Assembly (NCBI RefSeq): GCF_001422405.1
Contig: NZ_LMMV01000001.1
Coordinates: 435,275-499,274, forward strand
Source of the DNA: Pseudorhodoferax sp. Leaf267
GTDB lineage: Bacteria > Pseudomonadota > Gammaproteobacteria > Burkholderiales > Burkholderiaceae_C
Direction: 5' to 3'
DNA: 64,000 bases
Shown: piece by piece, positions 1-47,960 of the stretch
Position numbering within the stretch: the first letter of the stretch is position 1
Layout: every line of letters starts with the position of its first letter
Translations under genes and position numbers: made by a program
Notes under the pieces: generated by a model
The model's input: the letters and a program-made list of their open reading frames with translations, nothing else
Told to the model about the DNA's origin: nothing
Database searches by the model: none

Positions 1-669
1 GCCGACGGTGTCCACGCGCAGGATGTCGTAGCCGCCGGCGCCGCCGTCCACGCCGCCGGCAAGCGAGCCGCCGTCCTGCAGCACGAAGGTGTCCTGGTTG
101 CCGTCGGCGCCGGCCAGCTTCTCGATGCCCATGAAACGCAGCGTGGCCACGTGCCCGGCGTTGGCGCCGTCGATGTTCCAGGTGCTGTCGGCCACACCGC
201 CGCGCAACACGTCGTCGCCCAGGCCGCCGTCCACCGTGACGTCCAGGCCCGGCACGTCGATCTGCAGGCTGTCGTTGCCGGCACCGGCGTCCACCTGCAG
301 CGCGCGCACGCCGTGCTCGGCGCTGCCGAAGCGCTGCGTCGTGCCGTTGACGGTCAGGTCGATGACCGCGCTGCCGTCGGCCGCGCCGCCCACGCGCTGT
401 ACGACCAGGTGGTCGGCGCCCTGCGTGAGCGTGGTCTGCAGCATGCCGGCTCCGTTCAGCGCGAGCACCGGGTCGGCCGAGAGCAGCAGGCGCGGCTCCA
501 GCGCCTCGATCTCGTAGGGGCTGGCCTCGCGCGCGGCGCTGCGGCGCGCAGCCGGCGTGCGCGCGTCACCGGCCGGCGATGCAGCGGCGCGCCAGCCGCG
601 CAGCAGGTCGCGGGCCAGGGCGCTCAGGCCGGTGGCGGGGCGGGTGGCGGTCGTTGTCTTCTTCTTCAT
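1..669 (-). CDS. LEPR-XLL domain protein, N-terminal part of a large surface/adhesin-like protein (runs off the left edge)
   Basis: Reading the minus strand from the ATG at 669 gives 223 residues open to the window edge. A basic N-terminus (MKKKTTTATR) is followed at residues 57-66 by LEPRLLLSAD, the signature of the LEPR-XLL domain found at the start of very large repetitive secreted proteins in proteobacteria. Downstream, Gly/Asp/Asn-rich stretches (AGAGNDS, GGLGDDVLRGG) resemble RTX-like or cadherin-like repeats. The start is supported by GGAGAG a few bases upstream. Such proteins are usually type I-secreted adhesins. The C-terminal part, where repeats and a secretion signal would lie, is outside the window, so the exact role is unknown. 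Confidence 0.75.
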   Translation of the reverse strand, partial: MKKKTTTATRPATGLSALARDLLRGWRAAASPAGDARTPAARRSAAREASPYEIEALEPRLLLSADPVLALNGAGMLQTTLTQGADHLVVQRVGGAADGSAVIDLTVNGTTQRFGSAEHGVRALQVDAGAGNDSLQIDVPGLDVTVDGGLGDDVLRGGVADSTWNIDGANAGHVATLRFMGIEKLAGADGNQDTFVLQDGGSLAGGVDGGAGGYDILRVDTVG

Positions 670-1179
670 GACGCTCTCTCCGGGCCGCAGCCCTGCTCGT
701 GAGGGGGCTGCCGGCGGCGCGCGGTGCGCGCCGCCGGGTGCAGCAAGGGGCTGGCCGCATGCCACGGCCGGCTGCCTGGCGGCAGCCAACGGAATCGGTT
801 CGGGGTGGACACGGCGCGTCCCGCAGGCGCGGCCAGGCTCGGCGCGGGGCTCACCGTGGGCTCGCGGCGATGGGGTAGGGGCGCAGCCTGGTATGGGCGG
901 CCACCAGGGCCGCCAAACACTCTGTAACGGTATACATCAATGCATTCCGAGCGAGCAATTGATGCGGTTTCGTCGCGGATCGCTGCGCACACCAGGTCAC
1001 AGAGGCGCGCTTCGGGGACAGTTGTGGCTGCGACGTTTCGGTCATTCCGCGAACGGTATGCCAGGGCCCGCACTGTGTCCTGAGCAAGTTCTGGGCTTTA
1101 TCTGAGGCTGGCAAGACACAAGTTCACACTTTCGGCACACTACCGCCGCCTGATTGAAACAAAACGTGCGCGAGATGTT
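670..1179. other. Intergenic region between divergent genes, no convincing gene
   Basis: About 510 bases separate the minus-strand LEPR-XLL gene from the plus-strand regulator at 1180. Several open frames cross it on both strands, but their translations are Arg/Ala/Pro-rich with no recognisable domain, as expected of chance frames in high-GC DNA. The stretch around 915-960 is locally AT-richer and probably carries promoters for one or both genes. I could not fix a -35/-10 pair with confidence. Confidence 0.5.
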
Positions 1180-4050
1180 GTGAATTCTGCTTCTGCTGCT
1201 CCGATTTCGGGCGAACTCCGGTTCGCAGGCTTCCGCCTCCTCGGGCCGCATGGGCCCTTGCTGGACCAGGGCAGCACCGTCGATCTGCCACGCAAACCGC
1301 TCGCCTTGCTGTGGATGCTGGCGGGCCGGGCCGGCGAGGTCGTGACCAAGGACGAGATGCTGGCGCGCGTGTGGCCCGACGTGGTGGTCAGCGAAGGCGT
1401 GCTGTCCACCACGCTGCGCGAGCTGCGCGTGGCCCTGGGCGACGACGCGCGCGCGCCGCGCTTCATCGCCACGGCGCACCGCATCGGCTACCGCTTCATC
1501 GCGCCTGTGGCGCACCGTTCGCCCGGCAATGCCGGCGTCGTGCCGCAGCCCCCGGTCGAGCGCGTGGCGGCGGACGCTGCGCCGCTGGCCCCGCCCACCA
1601 TGGACGCCCTGCTGGTGGGCCGGGGCGCCGAGCGCGTCAGGCTGCGCGAGGCCTACCGGCGCGCCGCGGCCGGCCAGCGCCAGGTGCTGTTCATCGCCGG
1701 GGAGGCGGGCATCGGCAAGACCCGGCTGGTCGAGTCCTTCCTGGCCGAGCTGGCGGCCAGTCCCGAGGCCAGCGGCGACCTCGTGAGCCACGGCCAGTGC
1801 ATCGAGCATTTCGGCGCGGGCGAGCCCTACCTGCCGCTGCTCGACGCGGTGACGGCCCTGTGCCGCCAGCGCGGCGGCCGGCCGCTGGTGGCACTGCTGC
1901 GCCGGCACGCGCCGGCCTGGGCGGCCCAGATGCCCGGGCTGTTCGGCGCCGAGCCGCCGGGCCCGGCCGACACCGGCGCCGGCGCGGCCCAGCGCATGCC
2001 GCGCCAGATGGCCGACGTGGTCGACCTGGCCGCGGCCGACCGCACGCTCGTCCTGGTGTTCGAGGACATGCACTGGAGCGACCCTTCCACGGTGGACTGG
2101 CTGGCCATGCTGGCGCGCCGCCGCGAGCGCTCGCGGCTGCTCGTGATCGCCACCTGCCGGCCCGTGGAGCTGGCGGTGCAGGGCCATCCCCTGCAGCAGG
2201 TCAAGCGGGACCTGGTGGCGCGGCAGATGGCCCAGGAGCTCGTGCTGGGCCGGCTCGCGGCCCCCGAGGTGCGCGACTACGTGCGCCAGCGCATGCAGGG
2301 CCGCGCGGCCGTGCCGGCGCTGGCCGCGGCGGTGTTCCGGCGCTCGCAGGGCCACCCGCTGTTCATGGTGCACATCGCCGACGACCTGCAGCGCCTTCCT
2401 GACGGCGCGGGCCTGTCCGGCGAGGTGCCTTCGGGGGTCGGCGAGCTGATCGAGGCCCAGGCGGCCCGCCTGCCGGCCGAGCAGCTGCGCGTGCTGGAGG
2501 CGGCCAGCGTGGCCGGCGCCGAGTTCGCCACGGCCGCCGTGGCCGCCGCCCTGCAGATGCCGGCCGAGCAGGCCGAGCAGGTGCTGGAAACGCTGGCGCG
2601 CCAGGGCCAGTTCGTCGAGGCCAGGGGGCTGGCCACCTGGCGCGACGGCACCGTCAGTGGCCGCTACGGCTTCCGTCATGACCTGGTGCGCGAGTCGCTG
2701 TACCGGCGGCTGGGCAGCGACCGCCGCATGCGCCTGCACGCCGCCATCGCGGCACGCCTGGCACGCGCCTACCAGGGGCACAGCGGCGACATCGCGGCCG
2801 AGCTGGCCCTGCATTTCGAGAATGCGCACCAGCCCTGGGAGGCCGCACAGCACCGCATCGACGCGGGCGACAAGGCGCTGCACCGCTACGCCCATCCCGA
2901 GGCGCTGGGCCACGCGGCCAAGGGGCTGGCGCTGCTCGCCGCGGCCCCGGCCGACCGGCCGGGCCGGCCGTTGGCCGAGCTGCGCCTGCGCCTGATCGAG
3001 GGCGCGGCCCTGCTGACGGTGCGCGGCTACGGCGCGCCCGAGGTGGAGGCCACCTACACGCGCGCGCTGGCGCTGGGCATCGAGCTCAACGACGGCGCGG
3101 CCATCGGGCCGGCGCTGTCGGGCCTGTTCAATTCCTACCTGACGCGCGGCGCCTTCGCCCAGGTGCAGCAGATCGCCGACCAGGTGCTGGCGCAGCTGCG
3201 CCGCCAGCCCGACGTGGTGCTGGCCATGCTCGCGCACAACGTGCGCGGCACGGCGCAGCTGTTCGTCGGCGGCGCAGCGGCATCGCTGGAGCACGTGGAC
3301 CAGACGCTGGCCCTGTACGACCCACAGGCGCACCGCCACCTGGCCGCCACCTACGGCGAGGACCCGGCCATCGCCAGCCACCACTACGCGGCCCTGTCGC
3401 GCTGGGTGCTGGGTGATGCCGACGCCGCCGAGCACCACCTGCGCGCCGGCTCCGCGCTGGCGTACCGGCTGGAGCACGCGTTCGGCGAAGCGCAGATGCT
3501 GTGGGTCGAGTCCGTGATCGCACTGGACGACGGCGACCTGGACCGCGTGGAGCGCGCCACGCGCCGCCTCGATGCCATCTGCGTGGACTGCGGCTACCCG
3601 CTGTGGCAGGCGGGCGGCCAGATCCTGCGCGGTGCAGCGCTGGCGGGCCGGGCGCAACACGAGGAGGGCCAGCGCCTGACCGACACGGGCCTGCGGGCCT
3701 GGCGCGAGGCCGGCACGCTGCTGACCCTGCCGCACGCCCTGGCGGTCGCCGCGCGCATGCACGGCATGGCCGGCCGGCTGGACGTGGCCCTGGCGGGCGT
3801 CGAGGAGGCCCTGGCCATCGCCACGCAGACCGGGGAGCACTGGTACACGGCCGAGCTGCACCGCCTGCACGGCGAGTTGCGGTTGCGGGCCCGGGACGAG
3901 GCGTCGGCCCGGGCCTGCTTCGGGCAGGCGCTGCAGCTGGCGCAGGGCCAGCGCGCGGCCTTGTTCGAGTACCGCGCGGCGGCCAGCCTGGCGGCGCTGG
4001 GCGCACCGGGCGCCGGCCGTGTGCGGCCGTTGCGCCGCAACGCGGGGTAG
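1180..4050 (+). CDS. Large transcriptional regulator: winged-helix DNA-binding domain, AAA/NACHT-like ATPase, TPR-like C-terminus
   Basis: 956 residues from a GTG start. Residues about 10-105 form an OmpR/CadC-type winged helix, ending in the typical RFIATAHRIGYRFIAPV. Residues about 140-400 are a P-loop ATPase: Walker A GEAGIGKT and Walker B LVLVFEDMHW. The remaining ~500 residues are Ala/Leu-rich helical repeats with TPR-like periodicity. This order matches the 'wHTH plus AAA ATPase plus TPR' predicted-ATPase regulators, related in concept to MalT/STAND switches, that bind ATP and a ligand before activating transcription. The target is unknown; the divergent LEPR-XLL gene is a candidate. 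No in-frame ATG gives a better start before the winged helix. Confidence 0.8.
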   Translation: MNSASAAPISGELRFAGFRLLGPHGPLLDQGSTVDLPRKPLALLWMLAGRAGEVVTKDEMLARVWPDVVVSEGVLSTTLRELRVALGDDARAPRFIATAHRIGYRFIAPVAHRSPGNAGVVPQPPVERVAADAAPLAPPTMDALLVGRGAERVRLREAYRRAAAGQRQVLFIAGEAGIGKTRLVESFLAELAASPEASGDLVSHGQCIEHFGAGEPYLPLLDAVTALCRQRGGRPLVALLRRHAPAWAAQMPGLFGAEPPGPADTGAGAAQRMPRQMADVVDLAAADRTLVLVFEDMHWSDPSTVDWLAMLARRRERSRLLVIATCRPVELAVQGHPLQQVKRDLVARQMAQELVLGRLAAPEVRDYVRQRMQGRAAVPALAAAVFRRSQGHPLFMVHIADDLQRLPDGAGLSGEVPSGVGELIEAQAARLPAEQLRVLEAASVAGAEFATAAVAAALQMPAEQAEQVLETLARQGQFVEARGLATWRDGTVSGRYGFRHDLVRESLYRRLGSDRRMRLHAAIAARLARAYQGHSGDIAAELALHFENAHQPWEAAQHRIDAGDKALHRYAHPEALGHAAKGLALLAAAPADRPGRPLAELRLRLIEGAALLTVRGYGAPEVEATYTRALALGIELNDGAAIGPALSGLFNSYLTRGAFAQVQQIADQVLAQLRRQPDVVLAMLAHNVRGTAQLFVGGAAASLEHVDQTLALYDPQAHRHLAATYGEDPAIASHHYAALSRWVLGDADAAEHHLRAGSALAYRLEHAFGEAQMLWVESVIALDDGDLDRVERATRRLDAICVDCGYPLWQAGGQILRGAALAGRAQHEEGQRLTDTGLRAWREAGTLLTLPHALAVAARMHGMAGRLDVALAGVEEALAIATQTGEHWYTAELHRLHGELRLRARDEASARACFGQALQLAQGQRAALFEYRAAASLAALGAPGAGRVRPLRRNAG

Positions 4051-7145: not shown

Positions 7146-9752
<2,607 letters not shown>

Positions 9753-9839
9753 ACGCCGCACGCGAAGCGCAATCGCGTGGTGACGTTCCCCGGCCAGTCG
9801 TCGGTTGCAGCCGTACGGCGCTCGTCCACACCGGCCGAA

Positions 9840-9868
9840 TTTACGAAGATTTGACGCCCACCCGCCTG
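9840..9868 (+). promoter_or_regulatory. Possible KdpE-type promoter element upstream of kdpA
   Basis: TTTACGAAGATTTGACG followed by a C-rich tract lies about 110 bases before kdpA. From memory it resembles the T-rich, then ACxCCC, layout of the KdpE site before kdp in E. coli. The resemblance is partial and there is no second copy nearby, so this is a weak call. Confidence 0.3.
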
Positions 9869-9977
9869 CCGCGAATGGCAATTTGATGCCCTCCCGTCGA
9901 ACACTGACGGCCGGCACTTTTGCCATGCGACCGCGGATACGACATGCGTTTCTTCGACCCGGACGGAGCCACCCACC

Positions 9978-11675
9978 ATGGCTGAGTCCCTCTTGCTGCT
10001 GGCCCTCGTGCTGGCGCTGGCCTGGCCGCTCGGCCACTACCTGGCCGCCGTCATGCGCGGCGACGCAATGCGCAGCGATGCGCTGTTTGCGTGGATCGAG
10101 CGGCCGCTGTACCGGCTGCTGGGCACGCACCCGCAGCAGGGCATGACCTGGCGCGGATACGCCGGCGCCTTCCTGCTGTCCAACGCGCTGCTGGCGCTCG
10201 CGGTCTGGGTGCTGTTCATGACGCAGGCCTGGCTGCCGCTGAACCCCGACGGCGTGCCCAACATGTCCTGGGACCTGGCGCTGCACACCATGGTCTCGTT
10301 CCTCACGAACACCAACCAGCAGCACTACGCGGGCCAGGCCCAGCTGTCCTACCTGTCGCAGATGACGGGCATCGTGGGCCTGCAGGTGGTCACGCCCGTC
10401 ATGGGCTTGGCCATCGTGGCGGCCACGCTGCGCGGGCTGTTTGGCGGCCGCCAGGCGGCCGGCAGCGAGGCCATCGACGTGGGCAACTACTGGGCCGACG
10501 TGGTGCGCGCCACGCTGCGCTTCGTGCTGCCGCTGTGCCTGGCGCTGTCGGCGCTGCTCACCTGGCAGGGCGTGCCCGCCACGCTGGCCGCCGGCCCGGT
10601 GGCCAGCCCGGTCGAGGCCAGTGCGGAGTTCAAGGAGCAGAAGATCCCGCTCGGCCCGGTGGCGCCCATGGTGGCCATCAAGCAGCTGGGCAGCAACGGC
10701 GGCGGCTGGTACGGCCCGAACAGCGCCGTGCCGCTGGAGAACCCGACGCCGTTGTCCAATTTCATGTCGATGGTGGCCATCGTGCTGATCCCCGTCAGCA
10801 TCGTCTTCATGGTCGGCCCCTTCACTGGCCGCCGCCGGTTCGGCGCCCTGGTGTTCGGCACCATGCTCACGATGTCGGTGATCTCCTCGGGCCTGGCGCT
10901 GTGGTCCGAGGGCTATTCGCGCACCGCCACCGACATCGCGCTCATGGAGGGCAAGGAATTGCGCATCGGCACCGGTGCCTCGGCGCTGTGGGCCTCGCTG
11001 ACCACGCAGGTCAACAACGGCTCGGTCAACGCCATGCTGGACTCCACCGCGCCACTCACCGGCCTGGTGTCCATGGTCAACATGCTCATCAACGCGGTCT
11101 GGGGCGGCGTGGGCTGCGGGCTGCAGCAGTTCATCGTCTACCTGCTGCTGGCGGTGTTCCTGGCCGGCCTGATGACGGGGCGCACGCCCGAGCTGTTCGG
11201 TCGCAAGATCGAAGGGCCCGAGGTGCGGCTGCTGGCCGTGCTGGTGCTGCTGCAGCCCGTGGTGATCCTGGGCTTCACGGCGCTCACGCTGGCGCTGCCG
11301 GGCGTGGCGGGCATCTCCAACCCGGGCTTTCACGGCATCAGCCAGGTGTTCTACGAATACGTGTCGGCCTTCGCCAACAACGGCTCGGGCTTCGAGGGCC
11401 TGGGCGACGCCACGCCGTGGTGGAACGTGACCTGCGCGCTGGTGCTGGCGCTGGGCCGCTACCCGGCGCTGGTGATCCCGCTGGCGATTGCCGCCATGCT
11501 GGCCGCCAAGCGGCGCGCGCCGGAAGGTTCGGGCTCGCTGCAGATCGAGAGCCCCACCTTCGCGCTGACGCTGATCGGCATCGTGCTCATCCTCACGCTG
11601 CTGCAGTTCATGCCGGTGCTGGTGCTGGGGCCGGTGGCCGACCACCTGTCGCTCACCCCCTTGCTGGCCCGTTGA
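9978..11675 (+). CDS. kdpA: Potassium-transporting ATPase subunit KdpA
   Basis: 565 residues, about the family length. KdpA is the inner-membrane channel-like subunit that binds and translocates K+. The four pore-loop regions are visible: [30 protein letters not shown] and [11 protein letters not shown], between hydrophobic helices. It is first in kdpABC, with kdpB starting 10 bases after its stop behind a GAGGAG site. No kdpF-like peptide is visible upstream. Confidence 0.97.
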
Positions 11676-37939: not shown

Positions 37940-38809
37940 TCACTGCGGTGCTTTCGATTCAGCCTGTGCACGAAATTTTTCATAGAGCGCTTCGACGAGC
38001 CTGGCCGCTTCGATGTCCAGTTGCGTGATCCGATTGCCGACGTCCCAGGTCGTGAAGTACACGAACACGGTGCGCCATTGGTTTTCGAGGCGTGGGTGGT
38101 GCTTCAATTTGTTGATCGGGTCCACGAGCGCTTGCAGAAAGCCGATCGCGTCCTTGAAGGACCGGAAGCGAAACCCTCGGCGCAGCTCTAGACGCGTGCG
38201 TGGGTAGTCTCTGGGAATGGCGCTCTCGACGGGCTCCCAGCGAGGAATCGTCAGCAATGCCGCGTCCAGATCGCCATCAGTCAACGCAGGCAGGTTGATC
38301 TCGGGCGTTGGGTAGATCACCGCCGCGTCGGACGGGTGAAAGCCATGCGAATCCACCAGCAGGCGGGCCAGGCTCCCGACGTTGTCTTCCCAACTCTGGT
38401 CGTGGATCACGAGATGCTGACGGTTGCGGAGCTCCCGCAGCGGCTCCGGCAGCGCCTCGGCCGGCGGTAGTACGGTCAGGCCACCGACGAGCAGCGCGAT
38501 CACCGGCTTGCCGGAGCGCAGCGCTTGCTCGATCTCCTGGCGCACCCAGTCGCCTGTCTCGTCCAGGCGGCGGCGCCCGTACTGGTCGGTCGCACGCAGC
38601 CAGGTCGGGCCGATCACTACCAGCACGACGCTGGCTTTAGTCAGGGCGCGCTGCAAGCGATCGGGCCAGACATCACCCGGCTCGATACCGGACACGTCCA
38701 TGAAGACCTGGCGTGAGCCGAAACGCAGGCGCAGCTGGAAGTACAAGCCGCGCACTGCGTCGATGGCGTCCGTACGGCGATAGCTGATGAAGACATTGGG
38801 TTGGTGCAT
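37940..38809 (-). CDS. TIR domain fused to a pterin-4a-carbinolamine dehydratase-like domain
   Basis: 289 residues from MHQPNVFISYRR (AAGGA upstream). Residues 4-150 are a TIR domain: FISYRRTDA, VFMDVSGIEPG, VVLVVIGPTW, and GDWVRQEIEQAL with Glu92 at the place of the NADase catalytic Glu, then KPVIALLVGG. Residues ~185-280 match the PCD/DCoH fold: GFRFRSFKDAIGFLQALV, HHP at 237-239, Trp245, Trp255 and Asp265 in WDVGNRITQLDIEAA. Compared with the PCD active-site pattern, the first acidic position is Asn233 and the third His is Trp255, so dehydratase activity is doubtful. No partner gene adjoins it. A small-molecule-gated NAD-consuming effector is a reasonable hypothesis; a longer start at 38986 is unlikely. 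Confidence 0.82.
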   Translation of the reverse strand: MHQPNVFISYRRTDAIDAVRGLYFQLRLRFGSRQVFMDVSGIEPGDVWPDRLQRALTKASVVLVVIGPTWLRATDQYGRRRLDETGDWVRQEIEQALRSGKPVIALLVGGLTVLPPAEALPEPLRELRNRQHLVIHDQSWEDNVGSLARLLVDSHGFHPSDAAVIYPTPEINLPALTDGDLDAALLTIPRWEPVESAIPRDYPRTRLELRRGFRFRSFKDAIGFLQALVDPINKLKHHPRLENQWRTVFVYFTTWDVGNRITQLDIEAARLVEALYEKFRAQAESKAPQ

Positions 38810-38948
38810 GGGGATCCTTGGGTTTGCGCTCTGGTTCAAGCCGCTGTCGAACAGTCGGCGTGACACATCGAGACCTCCAGCCATTGGCCGGTCAAGGTCC
38901 TGCGAACAATCTACCAAGCTGTGCGGCCGGGTCCGCCGCGCGCCTCCA
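38810..38948. other. Short intergenic stretch, promoter region of the TIR-fusion gene
   Basis: About 140 bases between the TIR-fusion start and the restored end of the alpha/beta hydrolase, both on the minus strand. No gene or clear repeat was found. Confidence 0.35.
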
Positions 38949-39834
38949 TCAATGTGAGGATGCCGCCCCGGCCTTAGCTCCACCAAGCACCCGATCGAGG
39001 AACATTATGATGCGCCGCGTCACCTCGTCGCAGTTCGTCTCATTAAGCAACTCGTGCCGTGCGTCTGCGTACAGCCCAACCTCCACATCGCGCACGCCCG
39101 CCTCGCGGTAGGCGCTGCCCGACCAGTTGCACGCCTGAGCCGCCGGGCCCGGCGATGGGGTCTGCCTCGCCGGACAGCAGCAGGATGGGCAGGTCCACCC
39201 GCACCTGCGACAGGGCGGCAGGGTCGGCCGCGCGGCCCAGCGTGGCTATGCCGCTGAAGGGCTCGGGCAGGAAGCCGCAGGCCGGGTCGGCGCAGTACAG
39301 GTCAACCTCGGCCGCGTCGCGGCTCAGCCATTCGAGGCAGGTGCTATGTTCGAAGCCCTGGTTCAGCCTACTCAGGTCGACCGGGCCTTCGGCGCTCAAC
39401 ATCGCAGCGATGCCGGCCGGCTCGCTGGTGCCCAGCAGCACGGCAGCCTGTACGTCTGCGGAGTGGTCCAGCAAGTATTGCTGTGCCGCGAACGAGCCCA
39501 GGCTGTGGCCGATCAAAGCCAACGGCAGGCCGGGTTGGTCGGCACGGATGCGGCGGTTCAGCCGGTGCACATCGTCGATCCAGACCAGCCAGCCGTTCGC
39601 GCCCCAGCGCCCGTAGGCTCCGGCTGCATTGCGGCCGGAGCCGCGCGCGTCCGGCGCATAGACCAGATACCCGGCGGCTGTCAGGGCCTGGCCGAAGCGG
39701 CGGTAGCGGCCGGCATGCTCATCCAGGCCATGCTGCAACTGGACCACGGCGCGCGGCACGTCGGCTGGCGCCCAGCCAGAGGTTTGCACCGAGATGCCGT
39801 CGCGCGTGTCGATGGTGATAGTGCTGTGCTGCAT
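38949..39834 (-). pseudogene. Alpha/beta hydrolase (monoacylglycerol lipase-like) with a C-terminal frameshift
   Basis: From the ATG at 39834 the protein is a normal serine hydrolase: GLDEHAGRYRRFGQALTAAG, nucleophile Ser111 in GHSLGS, acid Asp225 in SGEADPI. After about residue 241 the frame gives nonsense (RLPRGGRARCGG) and stops at 39043. The adjacent frame, entered by skipping one base in the CGCC at 39111-39114, reads YREAGVRDVEVGLYADARHE, LLNETNCDEVTRRI and ends at 38949. DARHELLNE holds the catalytic His. The unshifted product therefore lacks its triad His. A true mutation or a sequencing/assembly error is possible. Confidence 0.82.
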
Positions 39835-46499: not shown

Positions 46500-47960
46500 C
46501 TACCGCAACCAGAATCGGAACACCGCCCCCCGCCCGTCCTGTGCCACCAGCCGGATGTCGCTGTCGTGCAGCTGCAGGATGCGCTTGACGATCATCAGGC
46601 CGAGCCCGCCGCTGCGGCTGGTGGACGCGGAGAACGCGGGCCGCGTGAACAGCACGGGTTGCAGCGCCTGCGCAATGCCCGGCCCGGTGTCGCTCACGTC
46701 CACCTGCACGCCGTCGGCCCGTGCGCTCAGGCGCACGGCGATCTCGCCGCCTTCGGGCGTGTGGCGGATCGCGTTGTCCAGCAGGTTGGTCAGCACGCGT
46801 TCGATCATGCCGACGTCGGCCGTCACGGTGGGCAGGCCGGGTGCGATGTCGGGCACCAGGCGCTGGCGGCGTGATTCGGCGGCCAGCTCGAATTTCTGGA
46901 ACACGTCCTGCACCAAGTCGGCCAGTACGAAGCGGTCCAGCTCGGGCTGCACCACGCCGTATTCCAGCCGCGCCAGCTCGAACAGCTGCTGCGACAGCAG
47001 GCCCACCTTGCGGCTCTGGCCCAGTGCGATCTCCAGGTAGCGGCGGCGCTCGGCAGGGCCCAGCGTGTCGGCCTTGAGCAGCAGCGTCTCCAGGTAGCCG
47101 TGCAGCGAGGTCAGCGGCGTGCGCAGGTCGTGCGAGATGTTGGCGAACAGCTCGCGGCGCTGCTGGTCGGCCGTGGTCAGCTCGCGCCACTGCTCGGCGA
47201 TGCGCTGCGCCATGCGCGTGAAGGCCTGGCCCAGCGTGGCGATCTCGTCGCCGCCGGCGGCCACGCGCTGCAGCGCGGGCGCGGCATGCTCCAGGCTCTG
47301 CACGCCTTCCTGCTCGAAGCGGCGCACGGCGCCGGTGAGTTCGCGCAGCGGGCGCGTGATGAGCCGGAACGCGACCAGGCCGGCGACCAGGCCCAGCAGC
47401 GCCACCAGCGCGATGGACCACAGCGTGGTGCGCAGCACGCCGCCTGCCGCCACCTGGGTGACCAGCGCGTCGCGTTCTTCGCCCGACAGCACGACGTAGA
47501 CGTAGCCGGCATCGCGCCCGTCGACCTTCAGGGGGGCCGCGCTGAACACCTTGCGCCCGCCCTCGCCGCGCGGGTCGTCGCCGAAGACAGGCAGGGCGGC
47601 GCCGTCCAGCAGGCGGTGGATGGGAGCGGTATCGACCGTGGTCTTCTTCAGGTGGCCATCGGGCGCGGCCTGGGCCTGGATGCGGCCGTCCAGGCCCAGC
47701 ACGTAGACCTCCACGCTGGGGTTCACGGCCATCAGCATCGTGAACAAGCGGCGTACGGCCGCGTCGTTCAGGCCGTCGCTCTTCATCAGTTCTGCATTGC
47801 CCGCGATGTGCGCGGCCAGGCCGGCGGACAGGCGCTGCGTGACCTCCTGCTCATGGCGCCCGCTGGCCGCCATCTGCAGCCAGGCCGATGCGCCGCAGCA
47901 GGCCAGCAGCAGCGCGGCGAACACCAGCGACAAGCGCTGCGACAGCGAAAGACGGCTCAT
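46500..47960 (-). CDS. Sensor histidine kinase of a two-component system
   Basis: 486 residues from the ATG overlapping the regulator stop. Helix 1 (LSLVFAALLLACCGASAWL), a ~140-residue periplasmic sensor region, helix 2 (LRTTLWSIALVALLGLVAGL), HAMP, then HisKA with FANISHDLRTPLTSLHG and ATPase motifs LLDNAIRHTP, VSDTGPGI and GGLGLMIVKRIL. It is beside sulfite-oxidase-family and methionine sulfoxide repair genes. That recalls HprSR next to msrPQ in E. coli, so an oxidative or hypochlorite signal is plausible but not shown. Confidence 0.92.
   Translation of the reverse strand: MSRLSLSQRLSLVFAALLLACCGASAWLQMAASGRHEQEVTQRLSAGLAAHIAGNAELMKSDGLNDAAVRRLFTMLMAVNPSVEVYVLGLDGRIQAQAAPDGHLKKTTVDTAPIHRLLDGAALPVFGDDPRGEGGRKVFSAAPLKVDGRDAGYVYVVLSGEERDALVTQVAAGGVLRTTLWSIALVALLGLVAGLVAFRLITRPLRELTGAVRRFEQEGVQSLEHAAPALQRVAAGGDEIATLGQAFTRMAQRIAEQWRELTTADQQRRELFANISHDLRTPLTSLHGYLETLLLKADTLGPAERRRYLEIALGQSRKVGLLSQQLFELARLEYGVVQPELDRFVLADLVQDVFQKFELAAESRRQRLVPDIAPGLPTVTADVGMIERVLTNLLDNAIRHTPEGGEIAVRLSARADGVQVDVSDTGPGIAQALQPVLFTRPAFSASTSRSGGLGLMIVKRILQLHDSDIRLVAQDGRGAVFRFWLR

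Follow-up and report, generated by a model that had tools for sequence, protein, structure and literature searches.

Within the window, by which we mean the whole 64-kb stretch of Pseudorhodoferax sp. Leaf267 DNA analysed here, one gene encodes a genuine fusion of a TIR domain with a domain of the pterin-4a-carbinolamine dehydratase (PCD/DCoH) fold. The TIR-PCD family is rare, and in one cyanobacterium the same pterin-type domain is joined to another effector, which suggests a swappable sensor for defence-type proteins. We give about even chances to the reading that the protein is a single-gene TIR effector gated by a ligand-responsive PCD-fold sensor. The features of the gene are as follows.

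37940..38809, minus strand: TIR-PCD fusion gene, 289 aa, ATG start, stop included (translation)
38815..38819, minus strand: Shine-Dalgarno-like AAGGA, five bases 5' of the ATG (sequence)
38378..38794, minus strand: TIR_2 domain, residues 6-144 (Pfam 2.2e-14; SARM1 TIR by phmmer and Foldseek)
38534..38536, minus strand: Glu92, aligned with the Glu of SARM1 DWVxxEI and invariant across 14 aligned TIRs
38303..38314, minus strand: YPTP linker motif, residues 166-169, common to the TIR-PCD loci L001, L002, L079 and L085 and to the CHAT-PCD locus L078
37988..38287, minus strand: Pterin_4a/DCoH-like domain, residues 175-274 (Pfam 6.9e-17; Foldseek 3jst, 1f93, 2v6t)
38111..38113, minus strand: Asn233, at the position of the family's first acidic residue (alignment)
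38093..38101, minus strand: HHP, residues 237-239, invariant in 26/26 aligned PCDs
38045..38047, minus strand: Trp255, at the third-His site, Trp in 8/8 fused modules
38015..38017, minus strand: Asp265, invariant in 26/26 aligned PCDs

Both domain assignments lie far beyond chance, with 54.4 bits for TIR_2 against a curated Pfam cut-off of 28 and 61.8 bits for Pterin_4a against a cut-off of 26. In phmmer searches against PDB sequences, the N-terminal half matches SARM1 TIRs and the C-terminal half matches PCD/DCoH chains. The AlphaFold model recovers both folds (mean pLDDT 85.7, pTM 0.61) from a 14-row alignment, only three rows of which reach the PCD half. Its pLDDT falls below 50 at residues 163-169, and the placement of the TIR domain relative to the PCD domain is unreliable in this model. 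Among the 50 Foldseek matches listed, isolated SARM1 TIR chains have target TM-scores of 0.79-0.85 and PCD/DCoH chains 0.76-0.88, with 3jst at 0.85-0.88. The preliminary description of this DNA had reported a TIR domain with Glu92 and a PCD-like domain with HHP, Trp245, Trp255 and Asp265 in one 289-residue protein, with Asn as the first acidic residue and Trp as the third His. All of these residues are confirmed, and the structural comparison with PCD folds that it proposed returns 3jst, 1f93 and 2v6t, in agreement with the profile match.

SARM1, an animal TIR NADase, is the best match of the window TIR in both sequence and fold, and possesses the same Glu block, which is also seen in L001, L002, L079, L024, L085 and L096. 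The SARM1 Glu aligned with Glu92 is presumably the catalytic Glu642; an E642A mutant is named in a PDB title among the Foldseek matches, and further titles indicate that self-inhibited, NAD+-bound SARM1 is among the matches of the TIR half. From the SARM1-like sequence and the retained Glu, the window TIR is probably an NADase. SARM1 carries ARM and SAM regulatory domains, both named in a PDB title among the SARM1 fold matches, whereas the window protein contains a PCD fold. The TIR-type domain is likewise common to Thoeris ThsB and other bacterial TIR effectors, with weaker resemblance: the matches to ThsB and SAVED-TIR models are weak, that to ThcB4 is far below its cut-off (PADLOC, NCBIfam), and all of them lie outside the PCD half. 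Thoeris combines ThsB with a ThsA-type partner, and no ThsA-type gene was found among the neighbours scanned.

The fusion is present in five cyanobacterial genomes and, as a frame-broken copy, on a Rhodococcus plasmid, in most cases with a YPTP-type linker. In a scan of genome contigs, the window protein hit 21 loci, 20 of which were read as reading frames and some by Pfam scan. The matches in 19 of them stop by query residue 159, and those in the remaining two, from Nostoc favosum (L001) and Stenomitos frigidus (L002), cover both halves. Genome searches added fusions in G832 (L079) and G1212 (L085, L112) as well as a divergent one in G1360 (L096, L113), with 35% identity over 280 columns of its alignment to the window protein. 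Across all other intact TIR fusions, identity to the window protein is 34-39%. The same architecture is found on the Rhodococcus jostii RHA1 plasmid (L024) with its TIR broken by a frame change, and the pieces match separately (TIR_2 at 29.4 bits, cut-off 28, and Pterin_4a). The homologue search called for in the preliminary description thus finds the architecture in relatives, and the two domains are not split in all of them. An assembly artefact is ruled out by this independent recurrence.

Two of these loci show peculiarities. At 9742-10690 of the Rhodococcus locus (pRHL1), the TIR and PCD parts lie in different frames, in keeping with either a decayed copy or a sequencing error, and the linker reads YPRP. 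The divergent fusion at 1003-1986 of L096 lacks the linker motif and has an extra C-terminal stretch resembling a ribbon-helix-helix (RHH_8 3.5e-5, just below cut-off).

Of 200 genomes from the window's family, 21 give a match at E<=1e-8 (seed included), and both halves are matched only in the window's own protein; the PCD half alone is matched in two others, G076 and G001 (with a stop inside the G001 copy), and no further match extends past residue 217. At the level of the order, matches at E<=1e-30 occur in 17 of 300 genomes (seed included), with only the window's own protein reaching past model position 175. The module occurs in 3/339 cyanobacterial genomes at E<=1e-18 (two on TIR, one on CHAT), in 11/214 of the order of G492 at E<=1e-15 (two of them fusions, the other nine open frames 95-113 aa long), in 3/42 of the order of G493 (two fusions) and in 10/200 of the order of G794 (two fusions); these counts include the seed genomes, the sets are samples, and the cyanobacterial, G492-order and G794-order sets overlap. 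The order of G494 (a Nocardia genome) gave 0/348 at E<=1e-40; with so strict a cut-off and no positive genome in the set, this counts for little as a negative. Among plasmids, the module was found in Rhodococcus and in short PCD-like matches (9 records in one search, 3 in another). The phage collection contained no match to the window protein, and IMG/VR gave one match with query A1, restricted to the TIR half, and none with the PCD module query A3.

The PCD module is also found on a second type of effector. In a sixth cyanobacterium, G794 (L078), a 364-aa protein is composed of a CHAT domain (1.4e-11) and Pterin_4a (5.4e-17), both above cut-off, connected by a YPTP-type linker like that of the TIR fusions. 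This protein is 64-79% identical to the TIR-PCDs of L001, L002, L079 and L112 over 110-141 aligned residues. The PADLOC 'chat' model likewise recognises the first half of this protein. A His and a Cys, spotted by eye in HFSGHG and LNACYAE, presumably correspond to the expected CHAT dyad. The CHAT swap, known from one genome, argues more strongly than any other observation that the PCD half is a regulatory module able to move between proteins, and that its position beside the TIR is no accident. In the same locus, a pentapeptide-repeat gene without PADLOC match (7703-9187) is located directly upstream of the CHAT-PCD gene (9311-10402) on the same strand.

A single module shared by TIR and CHAT follows the one-module-many-effectors rule stated for effector-associated domains (EADs) in the relevant part of PMC8195603. 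By analogy, the PCD domain could be an adaptor bringing TIR or CHAT to a core sensor through homotypic contact. Such a system would place the same domain on the core sensor. The window's own genome (E<=0.01) and the genomes G492 and G493 (E<=1e-5) each contain, besides the fused copy, one other Pterin_4a protein, a short His-type PCD of 97-172 aa, and none of these three genomes yielded a sensor carrying a second fused module. The module therefore follows the EAD rule without a homotypic partner, and we regard the adaptor explanation as unlikely.

The residues of the PCD pocket were compared in a 26-row alignment that combined eight fused modules with 18 stand-alone PCDs, the latter a non-random set drawn from module-seeded profile searches, plasmid hits and the genomes themselves. 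HHP, Asn243, Trp255 and Asp265 are each present in all eight fused modules. At the third-His site, the stand-alone proteins have His in 14 of 18 (L069 among them), Tyr in three (L087, L092, L111) and Trp in one (L080). The first acidic site is Glu in 17 of the 18 stand-alone PCDs; it is occupied by Asn in the window protein, Asp in L001, L002, L079, L024 and L078, Glu in L085 and Ser in L096, so that an acid is kept in six of the eight fused modules. We take the acidic residue, four before the first His, to be the counterpart of E57 of rat PCD and the third His to be that of H79. In addition, a longer loop precedes the RxELxR-like strand in the fused modules and L080.

The window PCD half thus shares profile, fold, HHP, Asp265 and spacing with PCD/DCoH proteins (3jst, 2v6t, 1f93), and differs from them by the Trp at the third-His site, the longer loop and the fusion to an effector. 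Two catalytic-residue features of PCDs, the acidic residue four before the first His (here Asn233) and the third His (here Trp255), are absent from it, and the five NCBIfam PCD equivalog models that match it all score below cut-off (e.g. 55.5 of 80 bits). For these reasons we do not call the protein a dehydratase. The preliminary description went further, inferring that the domain probably binds rather than dehydrates. The Trp in all eight fused modules makes this reasonable, whereas the argument drawn from Asn233 does not stand, since no other fused module has Asn there; the idea that a lost acid is the key change is accordingly rejected. Loss of the third His is not unique to the fusions either, given three stand-alone proteins with Tyr and one with Trp, and such a change alone is therefore no proof of a sensor role. 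The earlier proposal that the PCD domain is a sensor finds partial support in the fold of this half, in the recurrence of the fusion and, as would be expected of a regulatory module, in its sharing by TIR and CHAT.

The opposite possibility is a PCD that is still a working dehydratase, positioned by the TIR, or a metabolic protein unrelated to conflict. It would be in line with the acid kept in six of the eight fused modules and with the Trp of stand-alone L080, and a published PCD motif reportedly permits Trp at the third-His site. The exchange of TIR for CHAT has no metabolic logic, however, and the distribution is patchy, as the cyanobacterial count illustrates. Moreover, the genomes tested contain a separate PCD, His-type in the window's own genome, G492 and G493 and Tyr-type in G794 (for Rhodococcus, the search covered the plasmid only). 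The separate His-type proteins mean that the fused PCD need not be the housekeeping enzyme, and we consider this possibility very unlikely.

In the 26-row tree, the eight fused modules together with stand-alone L080 are set apart from the 17 other PCDs by a branch with support of 98/96, and the corresponding branch of a 22-row tree has 98/92. L080 is sister to the window module (100/99) in the 26-row tree, which is midpoint-rooted for drawing only and contains several long branches; its inner order is not reliable. This protein (L080 9824-10294, minus strand) is a stand-alone Trp-type PCD from G076, a member of the window's own family, and its position means either a loss of the TIR or more than one fusion event. 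The short stand-alone cyanobacterial Tyr-type PCDs L087, L092 and L111 form one group (99/95), perhaps another non-catalytic subfamily. Among four cyanobacterial fusion genes, purifying selection acts on both halves: by a Nei-Gojobori script, dN/dS is 0.10-0.25 for the TIR in six pairs and 0.25-0.63 for the PCD in the three of six pairs with unsaturated dS, the closest pair giving 0.63.

The occurrence of the module on TIR and CHAT, the grouping of the fused modules in the tree, and the retention of HHP and Asp265 together with the Trp give the module the appearance of an interchangeable regulatory unit whose pterin pocket is kept in altered form. Alternatively, the PCD fold may be a protein-protein scaffold of the DCoH/HNF-1 or plant Raf2 kind, which forms the dimer or tetramer and docks a host or phage protein as the trigger, the pocket being a relic. 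The DCoH-HNF-1 structure 1f93 is among the Foldseek matches listed. Raf2 and the PCD-like proteins of alpha-carboxysomes offer a precedent, in which an inactive PCD fold forms dimers and tetramers; the part of PMC5859369 considered here presents Raf2 as a Rubisco assembly factor and mentions neither TIR nor CHAT. A relic pocket would also agree with the Trp that the fused modules have in place of the third His and with their variable first acidic residue (N, D, E or S). HHP and Asp265, however, are invariant in 8/8 fused modules across cyanobacteria, Rhodococcus and the window genome at 34-39% identity, which weakens the scaffold explanation because a pure scaffold would not obviously need them. 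Taken by itself this explanation is somewhat doubtful, and it is nearly as likely as the ligand-gated sensor that we favour.

For the ligand-gated sensor, we propose the following mechanism. The protein would be a solitary, accessory effector of the conflict or suicide type, in which the C-terminal PCD-fold module, carried on a proline-rich linker, acts as a regulatory sensor. The protein is probably oligomeric: the module may form dimers or tetramers like other PCD/DCoH proteins, holding the TIRs in a controlled arrangement and keeping them idle in the unstressed cell. The cue would arrive at the module, either as a pterin-type ligand bound or lost, or as a protein docking on it as HNF-1 does on DCoH. 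It would then let the TIRs pack into an active arrangement, in which NAD+ is spent, and the CHAT version would cut proteins on the same cue. NADase activity, oligomerisation, gating, ligand and defence role are all our inference. Given that HHP and the Asp are kept and the third-His site is Trp in all fused modules, we favour a small ligand as the trigger, a pterin being the simplest candidate; pterin itself as the ligand is a tentative suggestion.

More broadly, the TIR and CHAT fusions could constitute a family of pterin-gated suicide effectors, in which an altered PCD module reads the pterin/folate pool and switches a TIR NADase or a CHAT protease, a generalisation that we find possible and rather unlikely. 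In a bold form, we would have the sensor detect pterin intermediates or a folate disturbance caused by phages, such as carriers of FolE and QueD. Phages with both genes for 7-deazaguanine DNA modification are described in the pertinent part of PMC6884629.

Known switches of bacterial TIR and caspase-like effectors include nucleotide signals, phage proteins and adaptor domains. A repurposed metabolic-enzyme fold on TIR and CHAT, if the sensor reading is true, would represent another kind of input and would tie the pterin/folate state to programmed cell death. It would parallel the GUN4 fusions of cyanobacteria, where GUN4 is joined to TIR, caspases and other effectors and read as a tetrapyrrole sensor (Kaur et al. 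2020, PMC7159879, in its relevant part). GUN4-TIR and GUN4-caspase proteins resemble TIR-PCD in having a cofactor-pathway binding domain fused to effectors, and differ in binding tetrapyrrole via GUN4, in place of which TIR-PCD has the PCD fold. The words 'pterin' and 'dehydratase' are absent from the main texts of PMC7159879, PMC8195603 and the TIR survey PMC7075850, and no description of a TIR-PCD pairing was found in the literature searched, a body that includes few subscription journals. The TIR-PCD system is small, encoded by a single gene and easily tested.

The preliminary description had also asked whether the fusion clusters with defence genes. In a PADLOC scan of 20 neighbouring ORFs from the seven relative loci, clear matches to defence models were found at three, a count made without control loci, for which reason the defence neighbourhood of the relatives is suggestive only. 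L001 has a PD-Lambda-2 A and B pair, A being also HigB_toxin in Pfam, and L002 a 113-aa ORF matching part of PbeA. At L113, a 503-aa protein (152-1660, minus strand) matches ThsB and PD-T4-6 and contains TIR_2 (2.3e-12) and GUN4 (4e-41) by Pfam. This TIR-GUN4 gene is located about 8 kb from the divergent TIR-PCD gene, and the TIR parts of the two proteins are not meaningfully similar (BLASTP E 0.27). The defence count is also weakened by how commonly cyanobacteria carry toxin-antitoxin genes. The neighbours of L112 gave general helix-turn-helix matches only and those scanned at L078, L079 and L024 no PADLOC match; the neighbours of the window gene are copper, hydrolase and protease genes.

The earlier statement that the gene has no partner is borne out, as comparison of heuristic ORFs (BLASTP E<=1e-6) from the window and the seven relative loci revealed no conserved partner gene. 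Apart from the fusions themselves, the ORFs matched between loci were two neighbouring genes of L001 and L079, which are close relatives, a DUF29 protein shared by L001 and L113, and a pair resembling response regulators, one in L113 and the other at window position 47957. To the left of the window gene are CusF, a multicopper oxidase, OEP and a metal P-type ATPase (Pfam), and to its right an alpha/beta hydrolase and a trypsin-PDZ protease followed by the next metal ATPase. The location between copper blocks given in the preliminary description is therefore roughly right. A functional tie to the copper genes is rejected, since neighbours vary between lineages (except L001/L079) and the DNA of the copper flank matches elsewhere in congeners. 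Among plasmids, the copper region is most similar to a Comamonadaceae record and to Variovorax paradoxus, with 17-22% of the query aligned at about 81% identity. Neither the tRNA scan nor Rfam at its gathering thresholds detected anything in the 64-kb window.

None of five congeners gave a DNA match to the TIR-PCD gene among the 40 scored of several hundred candidate places per genome, and two of them, G069 and G175, also gave no match with the window protein. The hydrolase and protease genes, in contrast, are matched by DNA in all five, and in the three congeners inspected no match continues past the hydrolase on the TIR-PCD side. The window gene thus lies at the edge of a rearranged or acquired block. 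Its GC3 is 0.785, within the range of 0.70-0.95 (median 0.919) of 20 neighbouring ORFs of at least 150 aa. Among the relatives, GC3 of the fusion against the neighbour median is 0.298/0.558 in L002, 0.292/0.405 in L001 and 0.300/0.341 in L079; it is the lowest among the ORFs listed in L112 (0.34) and L113 (0.39), and not low in L078 (0.338 vs 0.333).

The alpha/beta hydrolase gene upstream of TIR-PCD (38955-39834, minus strand) has a frame change near its C-terminus, and its counterparts in three congeners are open frames of 294-305 aa. A second TIR protein is encoded in the window's genome about 94 kb away (L023, G000:C1:568004-568432, minus strand; TIR_2 1.1e-13). Its C-terminal part is without Pfam match, and a metal P-type ATPase-like frame was recognised by eye in the same stretch.
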